This document shows positions 8,376 to 60,332 of a stretch of 64,000 nucleotides of DNA, one piece after another. The stretch comes from a virus. The stretch is from positions 1-64,000 of IMG/VR virus record IMGVR_UViG_3300035670_000009. One strand, written 5' to 3'. How positions within the stretch are numbered: position 1 is the first letter of the stretch; each line of letters begins with the position of its first letter. The position numbers and the translations under genes were made by a program. The notes below the pieces were generated by a model. The model worked only from the letters and a program-made list of their open reading frames with translations, searched no databases and was not told the origin of the DNA.

Positions 8376-11144
8376 TTATGGCGATTTTTGCTCGTCTTGC
8401 TTGGCTGGCGTGCCGACCTCGCGCAGAATCTTGCGAAACGCCTCGTTGAGCTGCTCTTTGTTCTGAGAGAGCGTCTCTAGAACCTCGTCGCCGGTGCGCT
8501 GGCGGCGTTGGCCCAGAAGCCTGCCTAGGAAACCCGGCTCGTCACTGCCGGATAGATATCTTTGGACCTGGACGTTCTTGAGATCTTCCGGCAGTCCTGC
8601 GTGCGAGTCAAAGCGCAAACCGCGGCCGCGTGCCTGCTGCGTACGGGCCTCGTTCCAGTGCGGATCCAGAAGCTGTATGAGATTCGTTCCCTTGGTCGAG
8701 ATACCCTCGGCGCCAGCTGGGCCAATAAGCAGGGCTCTGAGCTTGCCCTCGTTGTACTCTTTCAGCGCCTTCTGCCTGGCCTCGGGTGAAATTCCGCCAT
8801 GGAAAATGCCGTGCGGAATACCAGCACGCGCGAGCGCCGCAGCGTATGGGTTCACGCCGGACTCTATGAAGTTCGAGTAGATCAGCGCCTTCTTGCGCTC
8901 GTCGCCCTCGAGAGCTTTCTGCAAATTTTGCATGGCTGTCTGGAGTTTCCCAGACTGGTCGAAGGCTTTCAGTGGATCCCGGTCGCCGCGGAAGCTCTGC
9001 GTGGACAGCGATACTTGCCGGAGGCCATTGAGAAAGCTGTTCATCTTGGCCAGCTCTTCGCGCGACATCGGAAACTCTTTGTCCATCTTCCAGAGAAACC
9101 CTGGCGGCACTTTCGTGCGAATAGCTTTTTGGATCTTCTGCTGCGCCTTGGAGAGCGGCGTTTTAATCACCTCTTCTTGGACGTCCACGCCCTCGGGAGT
9201 CTTGCTGGGGTGGTAATCAACCCGGCCCTCGAGCAGCTGGCGCAGCTCTTTTTCGTTTTTGACGTACGGCACTTCGCCCCACTGCGCGCCGCGAAGATAC
9301 GGAATAATTCCCGGAAACTTAGACTTGTAGCCGATGTAGCGCTCTTCAAACTGCTTGGGCGTGAGCTCTTTGCTGGTCAGCATCGAGATCAGGCTCGCCA
9401 TGTCAGTAGGCGAGTTCGTGATCGGCGTGCCAGATAGGAGCACAAGGCGCTTGGCTTTCTGCGCTGCCTCGCGGGCTGCGCGAGAAGCTGCGCTTTCAGG
9501 GTTACGTAATCTCTGCGCCTCGTCCATGACCAGCGTGTCTGGCTGCGACTGGAACTTTTTGCCCAGCGCGAGTCCGGAGTAAGAAAGCAGCTCAGGATTC
9601 GAGCCCTGCGTGAACTTGCCGAGTTCTTTCTGAAAGTTGCCGCGCAAACTAGCTGGCACAACGACGCCGTAATTACCGCCATGGATTTTCTGCGCGGCTT
9701 CAGCAGCGGCAATAGCCGAGAGAGACTTGCCTGAACCTAAGCCGTGATAGACCAACAAGCGCGGGTCTTCTCCAGAGACGCGATCTGATACGCGCTGCTG
9801 ATGCTCCTGCAGCTCGACGTCGGGCGAAAGGGCGGCGGTCTTAGGGCGGCCGAGCCAGTATTTGCGCACAGCATTAGCGCGCGTGTTCTCACCTGGCAAG
9901 GGCGGAATGAGCTCGCGGCCGCTCAGGATATCGCCGGACCCGCCAGCCTGTCTGCCGCCAGACAAAGGCAACTGATAGTCGATGAGTTGTCCGCCTGGTC
10001 CTAGATTATCAGGGCGAATGTCTTTAACGCCAAAATTTAATAGCGGTTGATAAACCTTACGCGCCCGCTGCACCGCTTCGTTTTCTAGCGCTTCTCGCCG
10101 TGCCCATGGGTACGGCATCCCGGTCGTTAGATCGATGAACGTATCGTCAAAGCCCTTGTCAGTAATTGCAGGCAGGCCCGGCGCAAAGGTTGTGATCCAG
10201 CCGGGCACTACTGGCTTGTCGCCAAACTCTTGAAACACGCCTTTAACGCCGCTGCCGCGCAAGTATTTAGCTGCAGTGCCGGGAAACTGCCGGGCTAGAA
10301 TGCGCGAACCTTCAAGACTGCGTGCGGCTTCAGTGCGCAACGCTTGCCGGGACAAATCATGCGCGGGTAATTTGCGCACAATTAAACCAGACGTGCCTTT
10401 AAGTTTGCCCGCCATAAGGTCAGCTTGGTTAAATGTGCCGCGGCCAAGACTCTTGATAAATCGCATACTGCCGTCGGGCATACTGGCCGTAATCTTGCCC
10501 AGTGCCGCTGGAGAAAGCTGCCCTGCTCGGGCCAGCTGCACCCATTTTGGCGCGGCTGTTTTAACGTACTGTGCCAGGTCTTCATCGTCGTACGCGGCTG
10601 ATTTAAAAAGCGCAGACACAGCCCGCCACACCTGGCCCGGTTCCGCTTCGGTGCGACGTTCGTGACAGGAAACCGGAAAAACATCCCCTAGCTGTGTCTG
10701 CGCCTGTTTCACTTTGTCTTGGACGTATCGTTGCATCGCCTTTCGCTGGTACTCGTCCAGCATTTCGGTGACGCTGTTGGCCTGTTCGGCAGCTACGAGT
10801 TTTGCAGGATCAACGCCCCAGTTGCGCAGCGCCCAGCCGCGGCGAGCTGTGGGCTTGGCCGCAAACGGGCCGCCGTGGCGGGCTTTGAAGCTCAGCCAGC
10901 GTTTGATCTGGCGCTCGTCCTCGCCGGGAATTCTGCGACCACCAGCATAGCGCTTGTACCACTGCGCCCAGCCTTTGGGGTCGTGCTCGCTGAGCCACTC
11001 GGGTTTCCATTCGCCCAGGCTGGCTAGCCTGGGTGCGGCGCCTCGATACAGCGAGTCATATACGCCGAGATTTTCCAACTGCTCTGGAGTGTAATCTGGC
11101 TGGAACTTCGCAGAGATGTCGGGTTGTTGCGGCACATCGCTCAT
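8376..11144 (-). CDS. Large polyvalent protein: kinase-like region plus SNF2 helicase
   Basis: A 922-residue protein; its ATG at 11144 overlaps the upstream TGA (ATGA). Residues 9-32 repeat the N terminus of the upstream methyltransferase. Residues ~229-395 look like a divergent protein-kinase fold: LGRGTFNQ (glycine loop), VRK (candidate lysine), VKDIRPDNLG (catalytic-loop-like) and LIDY (metal-site-like). Residues ~445-860 are an SF2/SNF2 helicase: Walker A YHGLGSGKS, box II DEAQ, LSGTPITN, and the late motif ARGRGLRFD. Multi-domain proteins of this kind are known in phages as polyvalent proteins that may enter the host with the DNA. Kinase activity is inference. Confidence 0.8.
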   Translation of the reverse strand: MSDVPQQPDISAKFQPDYTPEQLENLGVYDSLYRGAAPRLASLGEWKPEWLSEHDPKGWAQWYKRYAGGRRIPGEDERQIKRWLSFKARHGGPFAAKPTARRGWALRNWGVDPAKLVAAEQANSVTEMLDEYQRKAMQRYVQDKVKQAQTQLGDVFPVSCHERRTEAEPGQVWRAVSALFKSAAYDDEDLAQYVKTAAPKWVQLARAGQLSPAALGKITASMPDGSMRFIKSLGRGTFNQADLMAGKLKGTSGLIVRKLPAHDLSRQALRTEAARSLEGSRILARQFPGTAAKYLRGSGVKGVFQEFGDKPVVPGWITTFAPGLPAITDKGFDDTFIDLTTGMPYPWARREALENEAVQRARKVYQPLLNFGVKDIRPDNLGPGGQLIDYQLPLSGGRQAGGSGDILSGRELIPPLPGENTRANAVRKYWLGRPKTAALSPDVELQEHQQRVSDRVSGEDPRLLVYHGLGSGKSLSAIAAAEAAQKIHGGNYGVVVPASLRGNFQKELGKFTQGSNPELLSYSGLALGKKFQSQPDTLVMDEAQRLRNPESAASRAAREAAQKAKRLVLLSGTPITNSPTDMASLISMLTSKELTPKQFEERYIGYKSKFPGIIPYLRGAQWGEVPYVKNEKELRQLLEGRVDYHPSKTPEGVDVQEEVIKTPLSKAQQKIQKAIRTKVPPGFLWKMDKEFPMSREELAKMNSFLNGLRQVSLSTQSFRGDRDPLKAFDQSGKLQTAMQNLQKALEGDERKKALIYSNFIESGVNPYAAALARAGIPHGIFHGGISPEARQKALKEYNEGKLRALLIGPAGAEGISTKGTNLIQLLDPHWNEARTQQARGRGLRFDSHAGLPEDLKNVQVQRYLSGSDEPGFLGRLLGQRRQRTGDEVLETLSQNKEQLNEAFRKILREVGTPAKQDEQKSP
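8552..8563. repeat. Dispersed palindrome box 4 (ATAGATATCTTT)
   Basis: Copy inside the 3' end of the SNF2-type gene, encoding QRYL. Confidence 0.8.
11048..11120 (-). repeat. Duplicated 73-bp leader segment, copy 1
   Basis: Near-identical to 11737-11809, with only a few substitutions by eye. Both copies are read in the same frame as the N-terminal leader (core PEQLENLGVYDSL) of two adjacent proteins. Confidence 0.9.
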
Positions 11145-11824
11145 GTTTTTACCGCCAGGCATTGATTCTGATGAATATCTAACACCTGCGTATCTGGAAA
11201 GAACTCTGTAATAGCCCGGCGAATGCCAGGGCAACAGACGTCGTCCCAGTCGTCAAACAGAATCGCGCCTCCCGGCACAATCTTTGGCCAAAACAACGAA
11301 AGCGCGTGACTTGTTGAATCATAGTGATCCATATCCATGTGCACGAAACAAAACGCGGCATGCACGTCTTTCGCAGACACTGGCAGCCAGCCGGGATAAA
11401 AGCGACAATTTGGCTTGTCGTCGAGATATGCCCGCACGGCCTCCAACGACGTATCTCCAAAACTGCCCGTATGAAATTGATTGGGCATTGAATCGTCGCA
11501 GATAAACCCCTGAAACGAATCAAATAACAGCACGTCTTTTGTTTCAAATGCCGTGGCTAGAATTCGCGCAGCGCCGCCTTTGTACACGCCGCACTCAGCC
11601 ACATGCCCGGGCAAATTCTTAGCCGCAATGTCGCAACAGACTTTGGCCAATAGCCTACGCTTTTCACCCAATACAGAGTGGTCAGGTTTTGCGGCAAACG
11701 CGCGGGCGAGCAGCGCATCCGCAGCGGCGTAGGGGCACAGCGAGTCGTACACGCCGAGATTTTCCAACTGCTCTGGAGTGTAGTCTGGCTGGAACTTCGC
11801 AGAGATGTCAGACGGCTCGGGCAT
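11141..11824 (-). CDS. TylF/MycF-like O-methyltransferase with phage leader segment
   Basis: A 227-residue protein. From residue ~45 it reads as a macrocin-O-methyltransferase-like enzyme: GHVAECGVYKGGAA (SAM site), LLFDSFQGF, FCFVHMDMDHYDST and GGAILFDDWDD, the acidic metal-binding motifs of TylF-type sugar O-methyltransferases. The first ~30 residues are a leader also found on the next protein, absent from ordinary TylF enzymes. It overlaps the helicase gene by ATGA. A palindrome box lies 23 bases upstream of the start, after the terminator at 11905-11945, so this two-gene unit probably has its own start signal. Confidence 0.82.
   Translation of the reverse strand: MPEPSDISAKFQPDYTPEQLENLGVYDSLCPYAAADALLARAFAAKPDHSVLGEKRRLLAKVCCDIAAKNLPGHVAECGVYKGGAARILATAFETKDVLLFDSFQGFICDDSMPNQFHTGSFGDTSLEAVRAYLDDKPNCRFYPGWLPVSAKDVHAAFCFVHMDMDHYDSTSHALSLFWPKIVPGGAILFDDWDDVCCPGIRRAITEFFPDTQVLDIHQNQCLAVKT
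11737..11809 (-). repeat. Duplicated 73-bp leader segment, copy 2
   Basis: Second copy of the leader-coding segment at 11048-11120, here at the 5' end of the TylF-like gene. Confidence 0.9.
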
Positions 11825-11858: not shown

Positions 11859-11904
11859 GTACCGGGCCAGTTTACCAAATGCACTTACACCCGAGCTCTG
11901 ATAG

Positions 11905-11945
11905 CAAAAGGAAAGCGGAGCGCCGGGGCCGAAGCCCCGGGCGCT
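11905..11945 (-). terminator. Factor-independent terminator with UUCG loop
   Basis: On the minus strand, AGCGCC-C-GGGGC, loop TTCG, GCCCC-GGCGCT (11919-11945), then a pyrimidine tract CTTTCCTTTTG. It ends the unit of the 84-residue gene. Confidence 0.85.
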
Positions 11946-11969
11946 GTTGCTTGCCTTGTGCGGGCTTTA

Positions 11970-12224
11970 TCAGCTCGCAAGCGCGGCGAGGCCCGCCTGG
12001 GCGATCACCGCGTTGAGCGCGGCGCCGAACTCCTCGACGGCGGCGACGATCTCCTCCTCGGAGAACTTGCCGACGTTGGCCTGGATCGCCTCGAGCTTGG
12101 CGCGCGCCTTGGTCAGTCGCCGCGTGGCGCGCACCCGCTTGCCGAGCTGGATGCCCTCGTGTACGGCGCAGCCGCCGATCGCCACCACCGCCACAGCCGC
12201 CACCGCCTTGATGAGCATGTTCAT
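11970..12224 (-). CDS. Small membrane- or lipid-anchored protein, function unknown
   Basis: An 84-residue protein. The first ~20 residues are hydrophobic (AVAAVAVVAIGGC) and end in AIGGC, which could be a lipobox; the rest is a charged Ala/Glu/Lys-rich helix likely to form a coiled coil. I do not recognise a family. It sits alone between its own promoter (12311-12339), a structured leader RNA and a terminator, inserted between genes of the virion-protein run. By eye its base composition is more GC-rich than its neighbours. This is the arrangement of a moron. Confidence 0.75.
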   Translation of the reverse strand: MNMLIKAVAAVAVVAIGGCAVHEGIQLGKRVRATRRLTKARAKLEAIQANVGKFSEEEIVAAVEEFGAALNAVIAQAGLAALAS

Positions 12225-12304
12225 CGTATCAGCCCTTCAGGTATTCTAGCCTGCAACGCTCACCCGGCGTTGCTGCAGCAAGTCCTGACTACCTAATCAG
12301 GGCT
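12225..12304 (-). promoter_or_regulatory. Structured leader RNA, type A/B (copy A)
   Basis: An ~80-nt leader of the 84-residue gene. Seen: hairpin CCTGA/TCAGG with loop TTAGGTAG; hairpin GCAACGC/GCGTTGC with loop CGGGTGA (12260-12266); and AATACCTGA just before the ribosome site, able to pair with the first loop as a pseudoknot. It aligns with copy B at 18381-18461, with stem changes that keep pairing. Probably controls translation of the gene below it; the ligand or partner is unknown. Confidence 0.75.
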
Positions 12305-12310
12305 CACTAG

Positions 12311-12339
12311 ATATGCCCGGCTGTGCGCTTTTCTTTAGC
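12311..12339 (-). promoter_or_regulatory. Promoter GCTAAA-N17-GCATAT
   Basis: Minus-strand GCTAAA (12334-12339) and GCATAT (12311-12316) are separated by exactly 17 bases, with GG before GCATAT. One of seven copies with identical spacing. Confidence 0.8.
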
Positions 12340-12341
12340 TA

Positions 12342-12893
12342 TCAGCGCGCAGCTTGTTGCGCAAACTGCTGCGCCGCCCCGGTGTAATTAAACGGCTTGG
12401 CCGACGACGTGATGCCCGGCAACAAATCCCACATCGGCTTCTGATAGCCGACTCGTGCAAGCTGCGCTGTTTGCCCAGCGTTCAACGCAACGGGCGCGCC
12501 GCCGCGTAAAACCTGCACGCCGTTGACCAGAGTCCGACTCGGCTGCGCTACGCCATTGATAGTCTGCGTGATGTGATTGAGCTGCGGCGTGTGAATCATG
12601 GCGTTGTGCATCGTGTGCCCGCCGCCCAAGAGCGCCAGGCCCGTGACAGCTGGCTTGACGACGCGGTCCATAGCAAGCTGTTTGAGCTTTGTGCCCATAG
12701 GCGTGACAGGCGCCCGGCCGGTGACCATCTGCGTGGCCTTTTGCATGAGCGTAGGCTTTGGCGCAGCCACGGCAAGCCGTTTGAAAGCAGGCGCCAGAGA
12801 ATGACCCAGCGCATCGAGCAGAGCTTGCTTTTCGCGCGGGCTTGTTTGCGCGCCCAGAACGTAGCCGAACTCGTAAGCTGACAGCGCGCTCAT
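12342..12893 (-). CDS. Virion-associated-type protein, function unknown
   Basis: A 183-residue protein starting MSALSAYEFGYVLG, with no enzymatic motif I recognise. The N terminus is the sort seen on head- or internal virion proteins of large phages. The middle contains a short glycine-rich hydrophobic stretch (VTGLALLGGGH) that could be membrane-interacting. The gene overlaps the upstream 969-residue gene by ATGA, so translation of the two is coupled. Its stop is directly followed by the moron promoter at 12311-12339. Confidence 0.7.
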   Translation of the reverse strand: MSALSAYEFGYVLGAQTSPREKQALLDALGHSLAPAFKRLAVAAPKPTLMQKATQMVTGRAPVTPMGTKLKQLAMDRVVKPAVTGLALLGGGHTMHNAMIHTPQLNHITQTINGVAQPSRTLVNGVQVLRGGAPVALNAGQTAQLARVGYQKPMWDLLPGITSSAKPFNYTGAAQQFAQQAAR

Positions 12894-15799
12894 TTTTTGC
12901 TCTTCTCTTTTTTCTGCCTGTCGGCCTTCGACTTCGATGCGGACTCTGACTCGTCGCGGTCAGAGTTGCTGTCTTCCGGCTTGTCGTCAGCGTACGTTCC
13001 CTTGCGCCGGGCTGCTTGCAACAGGCCATAAGCCTTGCCGCCGACCAGGCCAGCCAGTGCGCCATTCGGGCCGCCCAGCATTTTGCCCGCGTAGCTGCCG
13101 TACCCAGCAGGCAAAACTTTCTGCCGGTCGTGCAGAATCTCGTTGAGCTTGTTGGGCTTATCGCCGAGCGCCTTACGCAACGCCCGCTCAGAGCGCTGAT
13201 TTGCATTGGCCTCGTGAAGCAACGACACGAGCGGAATCTTGCCCGCCACGCTGTACAGATCTCGCTGGAGGCCCGTGCCCTGACGGCGCAACCAGGTAAG
13301 CAACTTGTTCTTGCCGGGCTCGTACTCGGGGACTTTCTTTGCGTTAAAGTCTAGCGCGTGGCCCAGCTCGTGTGAAAGCGCCGCAGGATTATTGCCGTAA
13401 AGATATGTGCTGTCGGAGAACGGGTTATAAGCGTTGCCGCGCGTCAGGGCCGTCGCGAGATAGCTCAGCGGCAACGAAGCGGTGCCAATTGCTTTGCCTG
13501 CAACGCTCGTACGGGGATTGGTCATCGTGCGCTTGATTTCCCGAAAGAAGCGCGGGCCGCCAAGATACACCTGATGATTACTCAAAGCTTGCGGGTCAGC
13601 CTGCGCCATGGTTTGCGCCAGCGCTTTCATTTTCTGCGCGCGAATGTCTTCTGGCGCAGCCTCGGGGTCAGTCACGCCCGCTGCGCCAGTCCAATCGGTT
13701 GGATTCACATGCAGCTGCGGCGAGAGAATGAGATTGCTGGGAAAGCCGCCGAGGTGCCCAAGCGTACTGCTCAGCGCCATGGCAGGCAGACCGCCGCGGG
13801 ACACGTCGATAGATATCTTTTCAGCCTGCGCGGCGCCGCGTGCAATAGCGAACAAGTCACACGCTGACTTTGGACGAATGCCCTGCAGCTGGCCCCACGT
13901 TGTCGCCTTCGTTGGCACATCGCCAAAGAACGACACAAACTCGCCCGTGCCGTACGACGAGGGAATACGCCCGGCAGCTTGGCCCACGCGTGTATAGCGC
14001 TGCATGGCTTTGCTCATTGCTGCCTGCGCGGCTTCAGTGTCGCCGAACCTGCGGAACATGTGAATGCCGTCGGGCATGCGCAGGCGCGTCGTGGGCGGCG
14101 CGATGGGGCGCGGCGTTCGGTTCCACAGAAACTCTGCCAGCTCGCTTAGCCTGGCCCCTGGTACCGCCTCGCGACGTGCAGCAGACAGCGCGGGCAATAC
14201 AGACGGATGCGCCGTTGACATACTCAGGACTTTTTTAGCCGCTGTTTGCGCTGCGCCAGCTACGCGAGAAGGCAACGCGGGCGCAGCTTCGCGGCCAAAG
14301 ATACCCGCCATCGTGCCCATGCGGCTGCTGAGATTTCGCGTCAAGTCGGTCATGAAGTTGGCAGACTTTTCACTCTGCGCAAGACCAGCTAGGACAGCCA
14401 GGTCTGTTACAGAACCGCATTTGCAGTTCCACTTACGCAAAGATTTGTTAATGCGCGAGTCGGGGTCTGATTTCGTTTCACTTCCCGTGTTCACGCGTTT
14501 CATGCCGCACATGCGCGCACAGAACGAATTTTGGCGCTTCTTACGCTCGCCGCTGGGGTTGCTCTCAGTGACGGGCGGCTTGAGATTCCCGCCGTGCGCT
14601 TTCTCGTAGCTCTTGCGGCCTTTTTCATTCAGGCCGCCTTCGGGGTTCTTGCCTTCGCTGCGCTGCCATGCGGGACTCGCTGCGCCTTGTTTCGCAAGCG
14701 CCGCCTCGATGAGCTGGCGCATCTCGGGCTTGAGCTGGCCCATGTGCGAGAACTCGAGTCTATTTGGCTGCTCCATGACGTGCATGCCGCGAATAGCCTT
14801 GAGCTTGCGCTTGTACTTGGGCACGTCTTCGCGCAGCACATAGGGATCCCGATCGAAGATTCGGCGCAGCCAGCCAGGCGGCTTGTCTACAACGTCGACG
14901 CCGTGCGTGTGCCCGTAGCGATATGCGTTGCCCACGTCGACGAGACCTTCGGCGCCGTACCAGCCGGGCATCTTTTCATCATTGCCGCCCAGAATGCTCG
15001 TAATCCCAGCGGTCTTTGAGCTATCAGGCGAGTTCTTCTGGCCGAACGCCGCGTTGCCATTGAGCTGGCCCTTGGCGCCCAGTGGCCCAAACGCCTGGAT
15101 GGGATTGTGCTGCGGATTCGAGCCGCCGCCGACCGGGCTGTTACTGGGTTGCGGCATACCTTGCTGCGCTGTTTGGGCGCCCTGCGCAGCTGACGCATTC
15201 GCCGGGGCGTTAACCGTACCCATGGGGGGCGTAATGTACGGAGACGGAATCGAGTACCTCTTCAACCCCATGTTTTGCGGGACAAAACGCGGCTCTCGAC
15301 CCTCGGCCAACGCTTGCGCAGTTTCCATTTCATTGCGAAAAGGCTTCGCCAAAACAGTGGAAATCTTTGCAAGCAAACTTTGCGCCGCCTCTTTATCGCA
15401 CTCTTCACGCTCACGCGATTCAGACTGCGAAGACTCGGCGTTGTCTAACTTTTGCTCGCCCTGCTCACGTTCTTGTCCGGCATACGTGGGTTTGTCGCTG
15501 TGGGGAATGTCCACTTTGACCAACGAATCCATAGCCGTTTTAGCGTTGGCGCTACCTTCTGTATTGCATATTAAAAAGGCACCGTTGCCCGAAAATTGTG
15601 CAAGCCCGGCCGAAAGAGCCGCGAGAGCGGCAGCTTTTTCTTTGCTATTGGCGCTGGGCTTTTTCTGGTCGTGGTCTTTCTTATCGGCGTACATCGGCAG
15701 ACCCTTGTTGGATTCGGGGTACTCATGCGCCCAACGTTTGGCGATGTCGGGATGCGCTGCCCATAGAAAACGGCGCTGCTTCTCAGACTGAAATGGCAT
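12890..15799 (-). CDS. Large virion-associated-type protein with HELGH metalloprotease motif
   Basis: A 969-residue protein. The N terminus (MPFQSEKQRRFLWAAHPDIA) is a conserved start found on many phage structural proteins. Around residues 400-470 it has GGLNEKGR, LKPPVTESNP and SFCARMCGM followed by NKSLRKWNCKC, a small conserved phage domain whose database name I will not guess. Near residue 815, LSHELGHALDF is a zinc-metalloprotease HExxH signature. The C terminus is Lys/Ser-rich. I infer a virion protein that may be proteolytically active on capsid or host proteins. Contains palindrome box 6. Confidence 0.78.
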   Translation of the reverse strand: MPFQSEKQRRFLWAAHPDIAKRWAHEYPESNKGLPMYADKKDHDQKKPSANSKEKAAALAALSAGLAQFSGNGAFLICNTEGSANAKTAMDSLVKVDIPHSDKPTYAGQEREQGEQKLDNAESSQSESREREECDKEAAQSLLAKISTVLAKPFRNEMETAQALAEGREPRFVPQNMGLKRYSIPSPYITPPMGTVNAPANASAAQGAQTAQQGMPQPSNSPVGGGSNPQHNPIQAFGPLGAKGQLNGNAAFGQKNSPDSSKTAGITSILGGNDEKMPGWYGAEGLVDVGNAYRYGHTHGVDVVDKPPGWLRRIFDRDPYVLREDVPKYKRKLKAIRGMHVMEQPNRLEFSHMGQLKPEMRQLIEAALAKQGAASPAWQRSEGKNPEGGLNEKGRKSYEKAHGGNLKPPVTESNPSGERKKRQNSFCARMCGMKRVNTGSETKSDPDSRINKSLRKWNCKCGSVTDLAVLAGLAQSEKSANFMTDLTRNLSSRMGTMAGIFGREAAPALPSRVAGAAQTAAKKVLSMSTAHPSVLPALSAARREAVPGARLSELAEFLWNRTPRPIAPPTTRLRMPDGIHMFRRFGDTEAAQAAMSKAMQRYTRVGQAAGRIPSSYGTGEFVSFFGDVPTKATTWGQLQGIRPKSACDLFAIARGAAQAEKISIDVSRGGLPAMALSSTLGHLGGFPSNLILSPQLHVNPTDWTGAAGVTDPEAAPEDIRAQKMKALAQTMAQADPQALSNHQVYLGGPRFFREIKRTMTNPRTSVAGKAIGTASLPLSYLATALTRGNAYNPFSDSTYLYGNNPAALSHELGHALDFNAKKVPEYEPGKNKLLTWLRRQGTGLQRDLYSVAGKIPLVSLLHEANANQRSERALRKALGDKPNKLNEILHDRQKVLPAGYGSYAGKMLGGPNGALAGLVGGKAYGLLQAARRKGTYADDKPEDSNSDRDESESASKSKADRQKKEKSKK
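13809..13820. repeat. Dispersed palindrome box 6 (ATAGATATCTTT)
   Basis: Copy inside the 969-residue gene, encoding EKISID. Confidence 0.8.
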
Positions 15800-15885
15800 G
15801 GCGCGCTTTCTGCGTTAAAGATCGTTGTATCTTCGCAAAACGCGTGCGCTACGGCAACGGCCAGAGTGTACGAGAGCGCTGATAG

Positions 15886-15926
15886 CAAAAGGAAAGCGGG
15901 AGGCCCGGGGACCGTAGCCCCCGGGC
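15886..15926 (-). terminator. Factor-independent terminator
   Basis: Stem GCCCGGGG/CCCCGGGC (15903-15910 with 15919-15926), then minus-strand CCGCTTTCCTTTTG. Ends the cassette of the 151-residue gene. Confidence 0.8.
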
Positions 15927-15975
15927 GCTCCACGTCTTTCCTCGCGATGAGGAGCAGCCGCGTGACCGCATGGCA

Positions 15976-16431
15976 CTAGGCCTGGGCCAGACCGCCCTGC
16001 GCGCAGATCTGCTGCACGTCGGCCGGGACCTGCTGGGCCTGCGCCTCGGGGGCGTAGAAGCCCTGCATGACGCCGCGGCTGAGCGGGTTGCTGCTGACCG
16101 CGGTGCCCGCCTTGGTCGTGACGTCGAGGACGGCCCGGGCGCTGCGGCCGATGCCGTAGCCCGTGACCTCGACGCCCTTGACCGCCGCGTCCGCCGTCAC
16201 CGTCGCGGCCGTGATGGCCGTGTCGGCGATGAGACAACCGGCGTCGAGCACCGCGCCGGTGGCGACCACCGCGCAGCCCGTGGTGAAGTTGCCGACCTTC
16301 GCGACGCCCTCCACCACCTTCTTGTCGCCACCGGAGCGGCGCAGGAGGTAGGACGCGACGGCGACGGTGCCGACGGCGATGGCGACCTTGGTGGCGGACT
16401 TGGCGAACAGGTTGCTGATGACGTGGAGCAT
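15976..16431 (-). CDS. Ala/Gly/Val-rich probable membrane protein, unknown
   Basis: A 151-residue protein starting MLHVISNLFAKSATKV at 16431. The N terminus has a hydrophobic helix (VAIAVGTVAVASYLL), and a second hydrophobic stretch follows (GCAVVATGAVLDAGCLIA). Small-residue repeats could pack as glycine-zipper helices. No family is recognised. The gene is strongly GC-rich compared with the flanking virion genes. It stands alone between promoter 16544-16572, leader RNA copy C and terminator 15886-15926. Confidence 0.75.
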   Translation of the reverse strand: MLHVISNLFAKSATKVAIAVGTVAVASYLLRRSGGDKKVVEGVAKVGNFTTGCAVVATGAVLDAGCLIADTAITAATVTADAAVKGVEVTGYGIGRSARAVLDVTTKAGTAVSSNPLSRGVMQGFYAPEAQAQQVPADVQQICAQGGLAQA

Positions 16432-16537
16432 CTGATTCCTCGAGTGTTAAGCTCGAGGTCCCAGTGGAGACAGATGGGTTTTCTAAGCCCAGGTTTCGGC
16501 CTTGTGGATCACCCGTCCACAACAGCTATATCTGCTC
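16432..16537 (-). promoter_or_regulatory. Structured leader RNA, type C/D (copy C)
   Basis: A ~106-nt leader. Seen: outer stem TGGAGCAGA/TCTG-T-CTCCA; hairpin TTGTGGA/TCCACAA with loop CGGGTGA (16509-16515); hairpin GGGCTT/AACCC; and a last hairpin CCTCGAG/CTCGAGG whose 3' strand contains the ribosome site GAGG just before the ATG. Aligned with copy D, stems change in compensating pairs. The start region appears sequestered, so translation is probably switched by refolding or binding. Confidence 0.8.
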
Positions 16538-16543
16538 CATCTC

Positions 16544-16572
16544 ATATGCCGGGTTTTTGGCTGTTATTTAGC
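16544..16572 (-). promoter_or_regulatory. Promoter GCTAAA-N17-GCATAT
   Basis: GCTAAA at 16567-16572 and GCATAT at 16544-16549 with 17 bases between. It feeds leader C and the 151-residue gene. Confidence 0.8.
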
Positions 16573-16640
16573 TCGCCCCAGATCATATGCGTAATACACC
16601 GTTTTGCGCACGTTTACGCATATGCGCGGGGCGCTGATAG

Positions 16641-16684
16641 CAAAAGAAAACCGCACGCCAGCGGCCCTGCAGACCGCCAGCGTG
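16641..16684 (-). terminator. Factor-independent terminator of the orphan RNA
   Basis: Stem CACGC/GCGTG with an inner GCGG/CCGC stem (16654-16684), then minus-strand CGGTTTTCTTTTG. It closes the transcript that starts near 16948. Confidence 0.75.
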
Positions 16685-16948
16685 GTTCTCTTCGTTGGAG
16701 TTTCACCAACACCCCGTTTCTTTCCGGTTTCCCGGTTCAGCCTTTCGGCAACCCCGCGAGGGGCGAGTGAGTTTCTCGACCGTAAGCACCTGCTAAGACG
16801 GCAGGCCCTTACGGATTTGGTCGGCCTCAGTCGACCTATACGGCGCTCGTCTTCCCGAAGCCAGGGAAAACTCGGGCTACTCACATGCCGTCACATATGA
16901 GTAACCGTAGCGCCGCTTGGACTATCAGTGCAATATGATAATCCAGGT
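16641..16948 (-). ncRNA. Orphan structured RNA (~300 nt), no coding gene
   Basis: Promoter and terminator bracket ~300 nt without a convincing ORF but with dense pairing: GGATTATCA/TGATAGTCC; CGGCGCT closed by AGCGCCG; TTCCC/GGGAA; GGTCG/CGACC; CCGTAAG..CCTGC with GCAGG..CTTACGG; and a chain of short hairpins, CCCC-TCGC-GGGG, GCC-GAAA-GGC, CCGG-GAAA-CCGG and GTTGG/CCAAC. It does not match RNase P, 6S, tmRNA or a group I/II intron core as far as I can tell. A 7-nt linker segment (16764-16770) can pair with the CGGGUGA loops with one G-U. Function unknown; a trans-acting regulator is one possibility. Confidence 0.72.
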
Positions 16949-16954
16949 CATTTA

Positions 16955-16983
16955 ATATGCCGGAGTTTTGGCCGGTATTTAGC
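16955..16983 (-). promoter_or_regulatory. Promoter GCTAAA-N17-GCATAT
   Basis: GCTAAA at 16978-16983 and GCATAT at 16955-16960, 17 bases apart. It drives the orphan RNA; no start codon with a ribosome site follows. Confidence 0.8.
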
Positions 16984-17005
16984 TCGGCGTTCAGCGCGCT
17001 AATAG

Positions 17006-17053
17006 CAAAAGGAAACCGGGCGGCCGGGACCCGAAGGCCCCGGCGCACCCGGT
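17006..17053 (-). terminator. Factor-independent terminator with nested UUCG hairpin
   Basis: Outer stem ACCGGG/CCCGGT and inner GCCGGGGCC-TTCG-GGTCCCGGC, then TTCCTTTTG on the minus strand. Over ~48 bases it is the same sequence as the terminator at 17852-17900. Confidence 0.88.
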
Positions 17054-17099
17054 GTGAGTGCTGTATTTGCTAACGCGCCCAGCAAGGCGCGGTCGGAGT

Positions 17100-17702
17100 T
17101 CAGTCGCAGGCCGCGGCGGTTGCGGCCATGTCCGGCGCCACTTCGGCGCCAAACATGCACCCCGCCGCATCGAGGGCCTGCATGAGGCTCTCGATGTTCA
17201 GGAACTCTGACCTGGTATCGGTCCCGGTCTTCCACGCGAGCTCGCAGCTCGCGACGTCCCAGGCCTTGTAGCCGACCTGGTTGAACGTCAACTTCACTTC
17301 CACGGACCTGTTTTTGGTCCACGTGCCCTCCCACCAGAGCATTAGCTCGGTGGGCGCGACGAGGCAGCAGCCGTCCTCGTCAAAGTCGGGCTCGCAGCTC
17401 GTGCCGCCCGACGCCACGAACCCTCCGCGGGGCGGGTCGAAGACGCCGTCCTCCGCCTCCGCGGCGGAGCGGAGGATCCGGCGGGCCTCGGCCGCGATCA
17501 CGGCCGGGTTCCAGGTACCCGTCTCGGGCAGCTGGATTGCGCGGATTAACGGGTCGAGCCGCTGCCCGATCAGCCCGGCCCAGTAGGCCAAGAGAACGGG
17601 CAGCGCCCGCCGGACGTTGTCCGGCACCTCGGAGGCGTATGCCTCCGAGGCGAACCAGCCCAGCTTACCCTCTCTGTACTGGTCCGGAGCGAAGTTGAAC
17701 AT
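17100..17702 (-). CDS. Cassette protein of unknown function (200 aa)
   Basis: A 200-residue protein starting MFNFAPDQYREGK at 17702, directly below leader copy D. It is GC-rich and soluble-looking, with several cysteines in the second half (TSCEPDFDEDGCCL, then VASCELAW). The segment VGYKAWDVASCELAW resembles LGYAAWDAAVEHQMAL in the next cassette protein, so the two may be distant relatives. No known domain is recognised. A longer ORF extends upstream to 17747 but would run through the structured leader, so I reject it. Monocistronic. Confidence 0.72.
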   Translation of the reverse strand: MFNFAPDQYREGKLGWFASEAYASEVPDNVRRALPVLLAYWAGLIGQRLDPLIRAIQLPETGTWNPAVIAAEARRILRSAAEAEDGVFDPPRGGFVASGGTSCEPDFDEDGCCLVAPTELMLWWEGTWTKNRSVEVKLTFNQVGYKAWDVASCELAWKTGTDTRSEFLNIESLMQALDAAGCMFGAEVAPDMAATAAACD

Positions 17703-17809
17703 TTGATTCCTCGGGCGGTAAGCCCGAGGCTCCAGTGGAGTCAGCATGGGTTTTCTAAACCCAGGTTTCAGCTGCGCGGATCACCCGTCCGCAACAGCTA
17801 TAGCTGCTC
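17703..17809 (-). promoter_or_regulatory. Structured leader RNA, type C/D (copy D)
   Basis: Outer stem GTGGAGCAGC/GCTG-A-CTCCAC; inner AGCTG/CAGCT; hairpin GCGGA/TCCGC with loop CGGGTGA (17781-17787); hairpin GGGTTT/AACCC; and last hairpin CCTCGGGC/GCCCGAGG holding the ribosome site GAGG before the ATG. Compared with copy C, CAGC/GCTG replaces CAGA/TCTG, GCGGA/TCCGC replaces GTGGA/TCCAC, and the last stem also covaries. Confidence 0.82.
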
Positions 17810-17815
17810 CACGTT

Positions 17816-17844
17816 ATATGCCCGAATATGCCCAGGTATTTAGC
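17816..17844 (-). promoter_or_regulatory. Promoter GCTAAA-N17-GCATAT
   Basis: GCTAAA at 17839-17844 and GCATAT at 17816-17821, 17 bases apart. A second GGGCATAT lies between the boxes, 10 bases upstream of the -10-like box. It abuts the terminator of the preceding cassette. Confidence 0.8.
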
Positions 17845-17851
17845 ACTGATA

Positions 17852-17900
17852 GCAAAAGGAAACCGGGCGGCCGGGACCCGAAGGCCCCGGCGCACCCGGT
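17852..17900 (-). terminator. Factor-independent terminator with nested UUCG hairpin
   Basis: Same stem-loop as 17006-17053 (outer ACCGGG/CCCGGT, inner UUCG hairpin), followed by TTCCTTTTG. It ends the 149-residue gene. Confidence 0.88.
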
Positions 17901-17930
17901 TTGCATCCGACGAGAACAGAATTGATTGCG

Positions 17931-18380
17931 TCAATCGACGAGGCACCCGCCCCGGTTGTTGACGCTCCATTTCCAGCCCGCCCGGGCCACGCGGGCCAGC
18001 GCCATTTGATGCTCCACAGCCGCGTCCCAGGCTGCGTAGCCCAGGTCCGCGATAGGGACCTCAAGCGCAGCCGTGGTCTCGTCGTGGGCAGCGCATAGCG
18101 CCGCCCAGCGCTCCTCTTGTTCCTCGTAAGAGCCGACGACTTGGTCCATTTCGACGGCCCAGGCGGCCGCCTTGGTCTCCTGGTCGGAGACCGGAGCCTG
18201 GTCTAACCAGGCCCACGGCATGACCTCCGGATGGAAGTCAGCCGGGTCCTCGGCGTCTTCGAGGGGCTGAAGCCAGAACGTCCCCGTCCGGTCGACCGGC
18301 AGGACTTTGCCCCGCTCGATGACGCTGAGGATCGTGAGCACCAGGCACGCCGCCAAAGGAACCAGAACGAAACCAGCCAT
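17931..18380 (-). CDS. Membrane-anchored cassette protein, unknown (149 aa)
   Basis: A 149-residue protein. Residues 1-22 form one hydrophobic helix (FVLVPLAACLVLTILSVI), so it is probably a single-pass inner-membrane protein with a cytoplasmic or periplasmic helical body rich in Trp, Ala and Glu. Near the C terminus LGYAAWDAAVEHQMAL resembles a segment of the protein at 17100-17702. The start at 18380 follows AGGAGG, which overlaps the pseudoknot of leader copy B. Family unknown. Autonomous unit with promoter 18468-18496 and terminator 17852-17900. Confidence 0.75.
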   Translation of the reverse strand: MAGFVLVPLAACLVLTILSVIERGKVLPVDRTGTFWLQPLEDAEDPADFHPEVMPWAWLDQAPVSDQETKAAAWAVEMDQVVGSYEEQEERWAALCAAHDETTAALEVPIADLGYAAWDAAVEHQMALARVARAGWKWSVNNRGGCLVD

Positions 18381-18461
18381 GATAGTGGCCTCCTAGGTAT
18401 TCACAGCTTGCATCGCTCACCCGGCAACGCTGCAGCAAGACCCGCATACCTAGACGGGACT
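18381..18461 (-). promoter_or_regulatory. Structured leader RNA, type A/B (copy B)
   Basis: Hairpin CCCG/CGGG with loop CTAGGTAT (18446-18453), hairpin GCGTTGC/GCGATGC (two G-U pairs) with loop CGGGTGA (18417-18423), and ATACCTAG (18393-18400) that pairs with the first loop over 8 bp as a pseudoknot. The ribosome site AGGAGG (18389-18394) overlaps the pseudoknot strand. This is the geometry of a translational switch. Confidence 0.8.
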
Positions 18462-18467
18462 CATTAC

Positions 18468-18496
18468 ATATGCCCGGGAAACGCGCTGGCTTTAGC
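18468..18496 (-). promoter_or_regulatory. Promoter GCTAAA-N17-GCATAT
   Basis: GCTAAA at 18491-18496 and GCATAT at 18468-18473, 17 bases apart. A palindrome box (18500-18511) sits immediately upstream. Confidence 0.8.
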
Positions 18497-18499
18497 CGA

Positions 18500-18511
18500 A
18501 TAGATATCTAT
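18500..18511. repeat. Dispersed palindrome box 7 (ATAGATATCTAT)
   Basis: Perfect palindrome just upstream of a GCTAAA-type promoter and beside the array of four hairpins. Confidence 0.85.
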
Positions 18512-18977
18512 TGACTGACTGCCTTGCTGAGAGCAGTCGGACTGCGCTCGTGAGAGCAGTCGGACTGCCTTGCTGAGAGCAGTCGGACTGCGCTCGTGAG
18601 AGCAGTCTGCGTTGCTGCGCGGGCATGTACCAGATTCCAGAAAATGGAAAATGCGCCGTAAGTGTTTTATACGCATGGACTTACGGCACATATTTTTTGC
18701 GAAACACGTAAGTCTTTTGCTGCCCACATGTTGCGCAGTAAATGCTTTTGTTTTGTCAAGCTGTTTGGCTGTAAAAACCACTGCTCGTGTATCCGTAGCG
18801 CGGCCTGTTTTATTGTTTTGCCCAGCAATACCGCAAAAACAGTAATTTTTTGGATACACGGGTATGTATGAAATAGCTGAAGATTGTGTACACAATGCGC
18901 AGTTTGGCAGGCTTCGCAAGTTCCGCAGTTCGCGAATCGCGAATCTTCGTTCCTGCTGCCCCAAAAACCGCCAATAG
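18512..18977. other. Gene-free palindrome-rich region, candidate origin or control region
   Basis: About 450 bases with no supportable gene and, by eye, lower GC than its surroundings. It holds four tandem 22-base hairpins (18517-18607), inverted repeat GCCGTAAGT/ACTTACGGC (18655-18687), a 75-base hairpin closed by CGTGTATCC/GGATACACG with inner CTGTTTT and TATTG stems (18786-18860), a 14-bp perfect palindrome ATTGTGTACACAAT (18883-18896) and TTCGCGA-A-TCGCGAA (18929-18943). It lies between a terminator (18978-19026) and a promoter, so it may be little transcribed. A replication origin or a protein-binding locus fits best; this is inference. Confidence 0.55.
18517..18607. repeat. Four tandem hairpins, exact 23-base period
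   Basis: Each unit is GACTGC-N10-GCAGTC, starting at 18517, 18540, 18563 and 18586. Two alternating loops (CTTGCTGAGA and GCTCGTGAGA) show that a 46-base pair of units was duplicated. Confidence 0.9.
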
Positions 18978-19026
18978 CAAAAAGAAACCGGGCGGCTGGA
19001 GCCTCGACGGCCCCAAACACGCCCGG
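18978..19026 (-). terminator. Factor-independent terminator ending the small-gene run
   Basis: Outer stem CCGGGC/GCCCGG (18988-18993 with 19021-19026), inner TGGGGCC/GGCTCCA, then minus-strand TTTCTTTTTG. Related in sequence to the cassette terminators. Confidence 0.85.
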
Positions 19027-19051
19027 CGTTCTCTACGCAGATTTCGCCGGA

Positions 19052-23210: not shown

Positions 23211-23283
23211 AGCCAGCGGCCGGGAACGATCCGGCGACCTACGGTTTACAAAACCGTTGCTCTACCAATTGAGCTACGCTGGC
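23211..23283 (-). tRNA. tRNA-Thr (anticodon UGU) with atypical T loop
   Basis: Acceptor GCCAGCG/CGCTGGC, D arm GCTC/GAGC, anticodon stem ACGGT/ACCGT with loop TTTGTAA, T stem GCCGG/CCGGC. The T loop reads ATCGTTC in place of TTCRANY, so the usual T54 and A58 are missing. CCA not encoded. Confidence 0.88.
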
Positions 23284-23301
23284 AAATTCCACAATCAATT
23301 A

Positions 23302-57097: not shown

Positions 57098-57825
57098 GCG
57101 AACGCTCTCCAATGCTGCCTAATTTCTAATGCGGCTGCGCGCAACGCAGGTGTGACGCACCACGACTCAACAGCCGTGTCGTAAATGCGCTGCTGCGCCT
57201 CGTAATCCAGCGCGGCGAGCCATAGATATCTTTCCACGCCGCGCGAGTTTTCCAGCTGATGCGCAAAGGCATGCCGGAAAAACGGGCTGGCCGAGACGTA
57301 GCCCTCGTCGCAAAGAACGTAGAAAACCTGGTCGTCAGGGGCCAGGTTTAGCGCCTGCGTGCCGCGGATGCGATTAGCGATCGTCGCTCCGGCTACGTCA
57401 AAGCTGTACTTGAGCATCTTCGGCAAGGCCTGAAGATACTCTTGGTAAATTGCGGGAGATTGCGCGCCATACAACCGGCTTGGCCGCATGTCCGGAACAA
57501 TATGCGTCTGCGCAACCTGTCGCGCATACTGCACGCCTGAAAAGTGCGCAGCCACGTAAAGCCCGGGGTCGGCTCGCGACGCGCGCACCGCGTCCGCGAT
57601 CTTTTGCCATACAGCTGTACGTTTAACGCCGTACGCGTCTTTACCGCCATCCCAACTGACGCGCCGTCGATTATGAACTGGCGCATCCCAATCCGGCTCA
57701 TTTTCGTAATGCCGGACAAACTGATACCGCAGATAGGCAGTCAGTTGATGTGCTTGAAGCGTTAAATGCCAATCCGGGGATAGGTCAATCTCCGCCAATG
57801 CCGCGCCAGCTTCTCTGCGCTTCAT
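57094..57825 (-). CDS. Phage protein of unknown function (243 aa)
   Basis: Start MKRREAGAALAEIDLSPD at 57825, within the end of the helicase gene; GGGAG lies 10 bases upstream. Helical, with YVAAHFSGVQYARQVAQTHI and an aromatic C terminus. Related in style to the 312-residue protein at 62560-63498 (YLRYQFVRHYE versus FLRYLRYNWLD), perhaps a family of replication accessories. No known domain. Contains box 17. Confidence 0.68.
   Translation of the reverse strand: MKRREAGAALAEIDLSPDWHLTLQAHQLTAYLRYQFVRHYENEPDWDAPVHNRRRVSWDGGKDAYGVKRTAVWQKIADAVRASRADPGLYVAAHFSGVQYARQVAQTHIVPDMRPSRLYGAQSPAIYQEYLQALPKMLKYSFDVAGATIANRIRGTQALNLAPDDQVFYVLCDEGYVSASPFFRHAFAHQLENSRGVERYLWLAALDYEAQQRIYDTAVESWCVTPALRAAALEIRQHWRAFA
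57222..57233. repeat. Dispersed palindrome box 17 (ATAGATATCTTT)
   Basis: Copy inside the 243-residue gene, encoding VERYL. Confidence 0.8.
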
Positions 57826-60331
57826 GCCAATTCTGCTCCCATCCCAATAGCTTGTAGCTGTTTCGACGACCAAGGCTTTTTCGATAAAAAGTTGGGTCGA
57901 ACGTGTCCATGCAGTCGAGTACTTCTCCGTACTCCTTGCGGGTTCCATCCGGCGCTGTGTAAATGCGGCTCACGCGGCCCGGCCCCTGAACGTCGACGAT
58001 ATCGCTGTCGCGGTCGTCGGCGCGGACCAGTACGTTGAGCTGCTCAAAGTCGACGCCCGTAGACCACACATCCGTAGCGATGACACGACGCAGTTCGCCC
58101 GACTCGAACTGGGCGCGCATGTTGTGCTTTTCGATTTCACTGAGCGGCGTGTAATTTTCGGGCAACAGTTTGTGCTTTCTGTACGCCGCGCAATCAGCGG
58201 GCGACATCGAGCCGTAGACCAGCCGAAAATCCGGTAACTGCGCGCCCAGGTGAACTGCATGTTCAATCGTTTCAACCAAGATCAAGATCTGATGCGTGTC
58301 GGGATAGTCCCGAACGGCGGCGGCGATGATAGAGTTGCGCTCGTGGTTTGTCCAGATTCCGTGTCGCTTGCGGGCTACACGGTTGCTGAATCGCTCAGCT
58401 GGGTTGGTCAACAACCGCATCGGCAGCCACTTGACCCGCACCGGCACGACCAGCCCCAGATCAACGGCCTGCTGATATGTGAGCTCAAACACCATCGGCC
58501 CAAAGAGCGGCTCGAGCACGTTGTGCGCGTTGTCCATCCGAGCATAGGGCGTAGCCGACATGCCAAAGTTCCGCGAATTGCGGTAGCGACTGGCGAGCGT
58601 TGTCGAAAAATTGATCGTCGCCAGCTGGTGAACTTCGTCGGCAAACAGAAAGTCTGCGTCGCCATCGGCGTGCTGCAACGAACCCGCGGTGATAATCGTT
58701 ACTCGTTGTCGCTCGCGCCAGCCGTCGCCAATCATGCCGACCTTGGGAACAAATCGCCGCAAACTGCGCTTGATCCGCTCGGCCACGTCGACGCTTTTGG
58801 TCACAACGTCAATGCGGGCCTCGGGGAAAAGCAGCGCGGCAGCGCCGATCAAAGTTGTATTGTGCGTGACGGTGTAGTCGCGCGTAAGGTACAACCCGTC
58901 GTCGGCGCTGACAGAAATGCAAGCGCACGGCATTTGACCTGCGGGGCGGATGGCCACAATTGCCTTGGTCTTGCCCTGCTTAGTTTTTGCGCGCCAATGT
59001 TTCGCTTTGCGCGGCAACCAAAAGGGATTTACGGGCAAATTCACGGCCACGCGCCAGTACGTTTTGCCAGGCTGTGCCGCGTATTCTTGTGATTTGACCC
59101 GCGTCACGCCGCCCAGCGACCGCACAAGGTCGCAGACGTCCTCGGCTAACTGTTTGGACGCGACGGGACCAAACTCGACGTGATAATTGCGTTTACGCAA
59201 CGTGCCGTCCGTGTCCATCAGGCCGCGCAACAGTTCAAGCCGCTGCTCGTAGCTGGCGTGCTTGTAAATTTCCGGGATCTTCTTGTCATGCGACAAAACG
59301 CACACGCCGAGCTGTTCAAGCGCTGTCTTGAGAAGATTTTCGCGTTTCTTGATGCCGTGCGTAATTCGCCAGTCGTGTCCGGCAATGTACGCCGTAAACA
59401 AATCAAACGGCGCCACAAGTTGCTCAACACGATCGACAATTTCGGGATCGTCGGTGCTGAACCGAACGCCGCTTTGCGTCAACCCGCCATCCCCCAGCAA
59501 AACGCCGAGAAGATACGGATCGACCGGCAACTCGCGCCGCTGAAAACGGACGGGGCCGGTCACCGGGACAAACCACTTCTTGTTGCCCTGGTTATCAAAC
59601 AGGTCGTCGACCAACTCGCCAATAGCAACGGCGCAAAAGCCCTGTTTCCGGTGCTTTTGCGTTTTGGTTTGCACGTTCCACAGATGCTCTTTGCAGCACT
59701 GCACCACAGAACCATCCGAAAATTCAACCTCGACGATATCCTTCACGCCTTGCGGGTAGACGCCCGTCACTTCTGTGGGGTATCCGTTCGCGCCGATGAC
59801 GTAGTCGCCCGGCTGAAGGGCACCGAGCGGCACAGGACCAATGGGCGTATACACGGTTTCGGTGAGCGGTTGCGCTTTCCCGAACCCGGTGACGGCCTTG
59901 ATAACGCCGCACGGCACGCGAGCGATCGTTTGAAGGCACTCTTCCTGGCGGGCGCGAAACTCGATGCGGCTGCGCAGGTTGTCCCACTGCGGCACGAAAC
60001 AATTGGGCCGTTTACGTTCAGGTGAGATGTCTCGTAATGACGTCTGACACCCGAGCTTTCTGAGCCGCCCGACCATCCGCGCTAAATAACCAGCCAAAAC
60101 GATCACTTTGCCATTCTCGATCCGGTGCAGCTTGTACTCTTTAGTCTGGTAGTACATCTTCTGCCCGGTAATTGGGTCGCGGCGGCCCTGCCCGCCCTGG
60201 ACCGCCTCCATATGCTCGTACCGCAAGTCGAACGTGAGGCGTTTGATCAACGCCTGTTCGAGCGGTCCGCCGTCAGAACCCGACAGAGTGAGCACGTTGC
60301 CGCTACGAGTAATCAGCACAGGTTGCTGCAT
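57785..60331 (-). CDS. SF2 helicase (UvsW-like) interrupted by an intein
   Basis: An 848-residue precursor; start MQQPVLITRSGNVLTLSG at 60331, one base after the upstream stop. Extein motifs: AVTGFGK + TTLIGAA (Walker A, split by the intein), FADEVHQLA (box II, DEVH), GMSATPYAR (III), LVETIEHAV (IV), VIATDVWSTGVDF (V), VQGPGRVSRI (VI). This is the pattern of UvsW/RecG-like phage SF2 helicases that remodel branched DNA. The mature helicase is ~509 residues after splicing. The intein occupies residues 153-491. Confidence 0.88.
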   Translation of the reverse strand: MQQPVLITRSGNVLTLSGSDGGPLEQALIKRLTFDLRYEHMEAVQGGQGRRDPITGQKMYYQTKEYKLHRIENGKVIVLAGYLARMVGRLRKLGCQTSLRDISPERKRPNCFVPQWDNLRSRIEFRARQEECLQTIARVPCGVIKAVTGFGKAQPLTETVYTPIGPVPLGALQPGDYVIGANGYPTEVTGVYPQGVKDIVEVEFSDGSVVQCCKEHLWNVQTKTQKHRKQGFCAVAIGELVDDLFDNQGNKKWFVPVTGPVRFQRRELPVDPYLLGVLLGDGGLTQSGVRFSTDDPEIVDRVEQLVAPFDLFTAYIAGHDWRITHGIKKRENLLKTALEQLGVCVLSHDKKIPEIYKHASYEQRLELLRGLMDTDGTLRKRNYHVEFGPVASKQLAEDVCDLVRSLGGVTRVKSQEYAAQPGKTYWRVAVNLPVNPFWLPRKAKHWRAKTKQGKTKAIVAIRPAGQMPCACISVSADDGLYLTRDYTVTHNTTLIGAAALLFPEARIDVVTKSVDVAERIKRSLRRFVPKVGMIGDGWRERQRVTIITAGSLQHADGDADFLFADEVHQLATINFSTTLASRYRNSRNFGMSATPYARMDNAHNVLEPLFGPMVFELTYQQAVDLGLVVPVRVKWLPMRLLTNPAERFSNRVARKRHGIWTNHERNSIIAAAVRDYPDTHQILILVETIEHAVHLGAQLPDFRLVYGSMSPADCAAYRKHKLLPENYTPLSEIEKHNMRAQFESGELRRVIATDVWSTGVDFEQLNVLVRADDRDSDIVDVQGPGRVSRIYTAPDGTRKEYGEVLDCMDTFDPTFYRKSLGRRNSYKLLGWEQNWHEAQRSWRGIGGD
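58859..59875 (-). mobile_element. Class 3 intein with LAGLIDADG endonuclease
   Basis: A 339-residue intein inserted after GFGK in the helicase P-loop. It starts with Ala rather than Cys/Ser, ends VTHN and is followed by Thr. Block B carries Trp (KEHLWNV) and block F Cys (CISVSADDGLYL), giving the Trp-Cys-Thr triplet that defines class 3 inteins, where the block F Cys starts splicing. Two LAGLIDADG-type helices, YLLGVLLGDGGL and LELLRGLMDTDGTL, indicate a homing endonuclease, apparently intact. Confidence 0.88.
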
Positions 60332-60332
60332 G

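Follow-up and report, generated by a model that had tools for sequence, protein, structure and literature searches.

Four short leader regions in one phage genome carry a hairpin with the same seven-base loop, CGGGUGA, on stems that differ. The question that this locus raises is whether such a loop is recognized by one factor that controls the four genes together, or whether it came along with copied expression modules and is not read at all. For only a few phage leader RNAs is a protein reader known, and large phages have many ORFans under promoters of their own. The window analyzed here covers bases 1-64000 of a virus record of 203,910 bases (IMGVR_UViG_3300035670_000009).

Profile searches of the window found a family A DNA polymerase and matches to a terminase and a virion protein; a tmRNA and two tRNAs are encoded as well. 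The relatives are IMG/VR records, with polymerases that are 57-86% identical to that of this phage. No isolated phage is close at the DNA level, and the annotated polymerase matches are below 60% identity. Cyanophage megablast matches named 'tRNA-Thr' were first taken for a leader, but their query coordinates are 23228-23297 of the window, which is the phage's own tRNA-Thr. A 919-aa ORF (57785-60544, minus strand, counted from the first TTG) matches terminase large subunit and helicase profiles in separate stretches and is likely mis-started or a P-loop overlap. Two 86-nt stretches in or beside a helicase-like ORF (11035-11120 and 11724-11809, 689 bases apart) are 90% identical, and we read them as a partial duplication.

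Promoters and single-gene cassettes

A promoter with the motif CTAAA-N16-GGCATAT stands directly 5' of each of the four hairpins, and the loops follow 28-44 nt 3' of GGCATAT. This 28-nt motif with its fixed spacing has 98 sites in 19 related records, compared with 2 in a reversed-sequence control; it is common to the whole phage group and conserved in the relatives. The spacing of 17 nt between CTAAAT and CATATT suggests a sigma-type promoter with a start ~5-8 nt downstream. Nine high-score sites are found in the phage's own genome, five of them between 12.3 and 18.5 kb, where one stands before each of the four leaders and the fifth before a non-coding RNA candidate. Judged by sequence, the same promoter also drives other leaders of this phage, which lack the CGGGUGA hairpin. 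A mini-ORF (RUG-N9-UAG) that opens all four leaders was considered and rejected, since it would need a leaderless start 5' of the likely transcription start; UAG at the same distance also recurs in the leaders of relatives. Directly 5' of one of these promoters, that of B18, an inverted-repeat unit (GACTGC..GCAGTC) recurs in tandem 23/46-nt repeats at 18517-18607.

The leaders form two paralogous pairs, A16 and A17 (16.5/17.8 kb, 80-84% identity) and B12 and B18 (12.3/18.4 kb, ~79% identity), and within each pair the similarity extends from the promoter to about the start codon (Table 1). The genes behind them (g12, g16, g17 and g18) have no family match in Pfam or PHROG and no homologue in the related records, and g17 has no relative in viral contigs. 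The ORFs behind paralogous leaders show no convincing similarity to each other (comparing two Ala-rich proteins at a time gave best E values of 0.07 and 5e-4), and it is thus the leader, not the gene, that the members of a pair have in common.

The region 11893-19028 is made of single-gene cassettes, which end in terminator-like stems with T tails and are parted by recurrent terminator modules with TTTTGCTATCAG at the end (six copies; one 58-nt pair is 97% identical). The 16-nt element TGATAGCNAAAGNAAA is found only in this region of the 204-kb genome; similar TTTAG(C/A)TATCAG elements precede promoters in relatives. From its sequence the region may be a place where cassettes are exchanged. 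A candidate for a 315-nt non-coding RNA (16640-16954, minus strand), which lies between the cassettes of A16 and A17, has a terminator and a phage promoter of its own (16955-16982). Its predicted fold, at -154 kcal/mol (z -8.4), comprises some twelve hairpins, and the candidate has no Rfam match and no relative in 19 records.

Table 1. Positions in the window of the four leaders, their predicted helices, promoters and genes, and coordinates of the leaders in related phages
Feature	Position	Strand	Basis
ORFan gene g12, 84 aa, hydrophobic N-terminus	11970-12224	minus	no Pfam/PHROG match
Leader B12	12225-12307	minus	alignment A3
3' strand of proposed pseudoknot, before g12 RBS	12237-12243	minus	counted pairs
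Hairpin P2 of B12, loop CGGGUGA 12260-12266	12253-12273	minus	counted pairs
5' hairpin P1 of B12, loop 12290-12296 = 5' strand of proposed pseudoknot	12280-12305	minus	counted pairs
Phage promoter of leader B12	12311-12338	minus	motif
ORFan gene g16, 151 aa	15976-16431	minus	no Pfam/PHROG match
Leader A16	16432-16540	minus	aligned to A17 (alignment A2)
Hairpin P4 of A16, holds Shine-Dalgarno	16438-16458	minus	counted pairs
Hairpin P2 of A16, loop CGGGUGA 16509-16515	16503-16521	minus	counted pairs
Phage promoter of leader A16	16544-16571	minus	motif
ORFan gene g17, 200 aa	17100-17702	minus	no Pfam/PHROG match
Leader A17	17703-17812	minus	just 5' of inferred transcription start to start codon
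Hairpin P4 of A17, holds Shine-Dalgarno GAGG	17709-17729	minus	one double-changed pair vs A16
Hairpin P2 of A17, loop CGGGUGA 17781-17787	17775-17793	minus	counted pairs
Phage promoter (CTAAAT-N15-GGCATAT) of leader A17	17816-17843	minus	motif, fixed spacing
ORFan gene g18, 149 aa	17931-18380	minus	no Pfam/PHROG match
Leader B18	18381-18464	minus	alignment A3
3' strand of proposed pseudoknot, adjoins g18 RBS	18393-18399	minus	7 pairs, kept in B12 and B18
Hairpin P2 of B18, loop CGGGUGA 18417-18423	18410-18430	minus	counted pairs
5' hairpin P1 of B18, loop 18447-18453 = 5' strand of proposed pseudoknot	18437-18462	minus	two double-changed pairs
Phage promoter of leader B18	18468-18495	minus	motif
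Leaders L274/L291/L306/L328 of related phages (alignment A4)	G004:178837, G008:107983, G021:54878, G027:109641	minus	

Two leader scaffolds with one loop

The initial annotation had described an identical loop on four stems that differ and still pair. CGGGTGA lies on the minus strand at exactly the four places it gave (Table 1), and each loop is closed by 6-7 contiguous pairs in which the changes keep the pairing; A16 and A17 differ in the P2 stem by one double and one single change, B12 and B18 by one double and two single changes. In RNAfold predictions, P2 is absent from the global optimum in some leaders. All four hairpins are real, yet they belong to two paralogous pairs and represent effectively two independent occurrences. 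The heptamer was also said to be almost absent elsewhere, which is wrong: there are 14 copies in the window, where 8.4 are expected, and 23 in the genome. What sets the leader copies apart is the hairpin context and not the rarity of the heptamer, as those with a stem of at least 4 bp (4 of the 23 genome copies) are exactly the four in the leaders, and the remaining 19 have stems of 0-2 bp. Across the 19 related records CGGGTGA on a stem of at least 6 bp occurs nine times, four of them in leaders, in a count that allowed the loop to be 0-3 bases wider and in which leaders make up 0.47% of both strands.

The A leaders are predicted to start with a 5'-terminal helix (P1), followed by the hairpin P2 with the invariant loop, a stem P3 and a hairpin P4 that holds the Shine-Dalgarno sequence. 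For A17 the fold has an energy of -57.4 kcal/mol (z -6.4). The Shine-Dalgarno GAGG of the A leaders is almost fully paired in the predicted ensemble, with an unpaired probability near 0, and the loop lies ~77 nt upstream of the start codon. Compensatory changes are found in P2 and in P4, one double change in each, and the signal collapses in controls in which the partners are slid. With two sequences, and with 136 of 500 shuffles doing as well, this covariation is suggestive of P2 and of the Shine-Dalgarno hairpin and not conclusive. In the Rfam search nothing exceeded the gathering threshold; the best match, P36 (23.9 bits against a threshold of 36, E 0.21), was judged to be chance. Over 12 nt, GCGGACGGGTGA, the P2 region of A17 matches 16S exactly (at E. 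coli position 105; taken alone, A17 has p 0.007), and P3 of A17 has 12 nt in common with 23S (CTGGGTTTAGAA). Mimicry of rRNA was rejected, as the match is only 10 nt in A16 and only 8 nt in B.

The B leaders are predicted to have another architecture, in which P1 is a 5' hairpin, the loop of hairpin P2 is CGGGUGA, and the P1 loop (UAGGUA) forms a pseudoknot with UACCU before the RBS. The end of the CGGGUGA loop is ~36 nt upstream of the start codon. Alignment A3 contains two double changes in P1, one double and two one-sided changes in P2, and one double and one one-sided change in the proposed pseudoknot, which keeps 7 pairs in both leaders (two sequences only). The three helices are mutually compatible, and 44 of 44 cells pair, compared with 27-41% when the partners are slid. 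Shuffling equals this result in 36 of 500 cases, because a pair can be in no more than two states, and the compensatory changes, coming from two sequences, are suggestive of the B helices and not conclusive.

Homology between A and B was considered and dropped, because no local alignment is significant once the loop is removed (p 0.06-0.62). Among 20,000 shuffled A/B leader pairs none had an identical hairpin loop of at least 5 nt (stem at least 6), and in comparisons of the real A17 with shuffled B18 a common loop of at least 7 nt appeared at a frequency of 5e-5; the common loop is therefore unlikely to be due to chance. Throughout 63 leader clusters of the phage group no other loop of at least 7 nt is common to different leaders. 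The central observation of the initial annotation, that the loop stays constant while the stems vary and the two architectures are unrelated, is borne out by these shuffles and by flanks that cannot be aligned, and it speaks for selection on the loop. Two histories are possible, namely common descent of the hairpin only, by module exchange, or convergence on one reader.

Distribution of the hairpin and leaders of relatives

When covariance models built from A and from B were run on the genome and its relatives (1.84 Mb), each recovered its own members only; in 15 further related records they had no match. The promoter-plus-loop pattern had no match in IMG/VR, and its single match in a GTDB genome has no stem and was dismissed as chance. 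Exact hairpin patterns in IMG/VR gave, among the matches listed, chance coding matches without the flanks or the stem. A covariance search without further copies was named in the initial annotation as one sign against its reading; outside this genome, in IMG/VR, GTDB and the relatives searched, there are none. Among everything searched, the CGGGUGA hairpins thus appear to be found only in this phage. The collections may omit records very near to its genome, so that orthologues could exist unseen.

In four related phages (G004, G008, G021 and G027) a conserved ORF is preceded by another type of long leader, a four-hairpin family in which 12 pairs are changed on both sides (alignment A4). This family is like the present leaders in its promoter, in its multi-hairpin form and in a closing 5' helix together with CTATAGCT, which is also found in A17; the loops of its second hairpin are CCGGUGA, CGGCGACAU and CGGGGCU. 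It is unlike them in that it has no score with the A or B models and in that its loop varies between species and is not CGGGUGA. Of 46 leaders in the group as a whole, 13 have a fold with z below -2, and a stem placed right at the 5' end is frequent. Together with the A4 leaders, this indicates that structured leaders are a habit of this phage group.

Possible readers of the loop and known systems

The explanation that we prefer, tentatively and with a probability of roughly 40%, is that the hairpin is an operator under one trans-acting factor, in leader RNAs specific to this lineage. The four regions would be structured 5' leaders of single-gene cassettes, each transcribed from the phage's own promoter. 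Two scaffolds would shape the RBS, which may be held in a hairpin in A and lie behind a loop-to-RBS pseudoknot in B, and both would present the same recognition hairpin with a variable stem and an invariant loop. The hairpin would serve as a translational operator for one factor, probably an RNA-binding protein of the phage or the host, which may stabilize or open the RBS structure and so control the four small genes together. Several results tell against this: the occurrences are effectively two, P2 is missing from some global optima, other leaders with this promoter lack the hairpin, and the searches gave no orthologous leaders. Helices near the RBS occur in both scaffolds, and P2 lies upstream of the RBS, to which it is presumably linked. 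Translational control is a plausible mechanism and the simplest one that makes use of all the predicted anatomy. A broader claim, that these leaders form a phage RNA regulon in which a trans factor reads the heptaloop on two unrelated RBS scaffolds and switches the ORFan cluster post-transcriptionally, is possible but we hold it more loosely.

It is rather doubtful, though worth serious thought, that the leaders are only duplicated or recombined expression modules, with a promoter and a stable 5' structure for mRNA stability or insulation, in which the loop was shuffled between A and B and is not read. The paralogy of the two pairs from promoter to start codon fits this idea, and so do the repeated terminators that flank the cassettes and the strong 5'-terminal stems common across the group's leaders. 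However, A and B are alignable only in the loop, and in each pair the stem has changed with compensation while the loop has not. Another possibility, an unlikely one, is that the loop docks the ribosome at a standby or enhancer site, as GGUGA(UCC) could pair with the 3' end of 16S (GGAUCACC) beside the anti-Shine-Dalgarno. The 3' end of E. coli 16S (TGGATCACC), which may not be that of the host, is indeed complementary to GGTGATCCA in A16 and GGTGATCC in A17, but B offers only GGUGA (GGGUGA with one wobble), the UCC part in A is held in the P2 stem, and the invariant first C is not explained. The loop might also act in cis, by pairing with CRCYCG in A (the 3' strand of the Shine-Dalgarno hairpin, before GAGG) and with UACCU in B, which would open the RBS structure in A and compete with it in B. 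Six such pairs are kept in both A leaders and five in both B leaders; still, there are no double changes, G-U pairs are needed and a complement of this length is often expected by chance, which makes this option quite unlikely.

A specific reader would be the CsrA homologue that this phage encodes outside the window (104957-105103, minus strand, locus L362), which is over the Pfam cut-off (E 7.8e-23), is CsrA-like in PHROG and has homologues in large related genomes; it would repress or activate the four leaders. Like CsrA/RsmA-controlled leaders, the present ones are hairpin-rich, and those of A have four GGA, one of them at the Shine-Dalgarno. Unlike such leaders, they share a loop without the GGA core; the B leaders have one GGA each, in differing places, and away from the Shine-Dalgarno region the leaders show no enrichment of GGA (33 vs 28.2 +/- 4.7). 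The adjacent non-coding RNA candidate has only 4 GGA in 315 nt, unlike a CsrB sponge. Based on these counts, neither CsrA as the reader nor the RNA as a CsrB-like sponge is supported, and we think CsrA control of the loop very unlikely. The homologue is in its own right a candidate global RNA regulator of the phage group. We give the least credence to the idea that the leaders are riboswitches for a metabolite, with an aptamer core that includes the loop: the B pseudoknot and the multi-helix A scaffold beside the RBS recall the layout of translational riboswitches, but no Rfam family matches, the sole constant part is a terminal loop and not a junction core, and the genes have no metabolic annotation. 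As for other partners of the proposed operator, the complement UCACCCG is absent from the RNAs checked (the phage tmRNA and tRNAs and the neighbouring non-coding RNA), and a profile search of the phage found no cold-shock domain. RegA (PF01818) had no match in the phage in a search whose control was also without match, and which is hence uninformative.

The four leaders can be compared with phage systems in which control by RNA is known. In the lambdoid nut/boxB system one would look for a boxA with a boxB hairpin near the promoter; the four leaders contain no boxA-like GCTCTT, and with terminator-like stems at the cassette ends antitermination would hardly be of use. A review of T4 names the targets of RegB, RegA, gp32 and gp43 (PMC3014915). 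The gene 32 leader of T4 and RB69 has a pseudoknot that is tied to translation control and gp32 autoregulation (PMC3014915), and the B leaders are also predicted to form a pseudoknot in a phage mRNA leader. They differ from it in that the loop of the 5' hairpin pairs with bases before the RBS, an extra CGGGUGA hairpin is inserted and there is no A+U-rich repeat; neither g12 nor g18 has a family match as an ssDNA-binding protein, the type of gene that gp32 represents. The B leaders offer a loop-to-RBS pseudoknot that can be tested, and one loop on two unrelated scaffolds at four ORFans is a bait for a post-transcriptional regulator.

The gene 43 operator of T4 and RB69, which is bound up with the DNA polymerase gp43, differs in serving one autoregulated gene, with a loop UAAC and a hairpin of 16-18 bases that reaches the RBS, whereas here there are four ORFans and a 7-nt loop, CGGGUGA. 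The T4 operator lies ~40 bases upstream of the start codon (PMC3014915), close to the distance seen in the B leaders, while the loop in A is ~77 nt away. The present leaders add to a known kind, the phage leader RNA elements, and for them we infer a single reader; as in the gene 43 operator, a phage mRNA leader carries a hairpin whose loop is conserved although the stem may vary.
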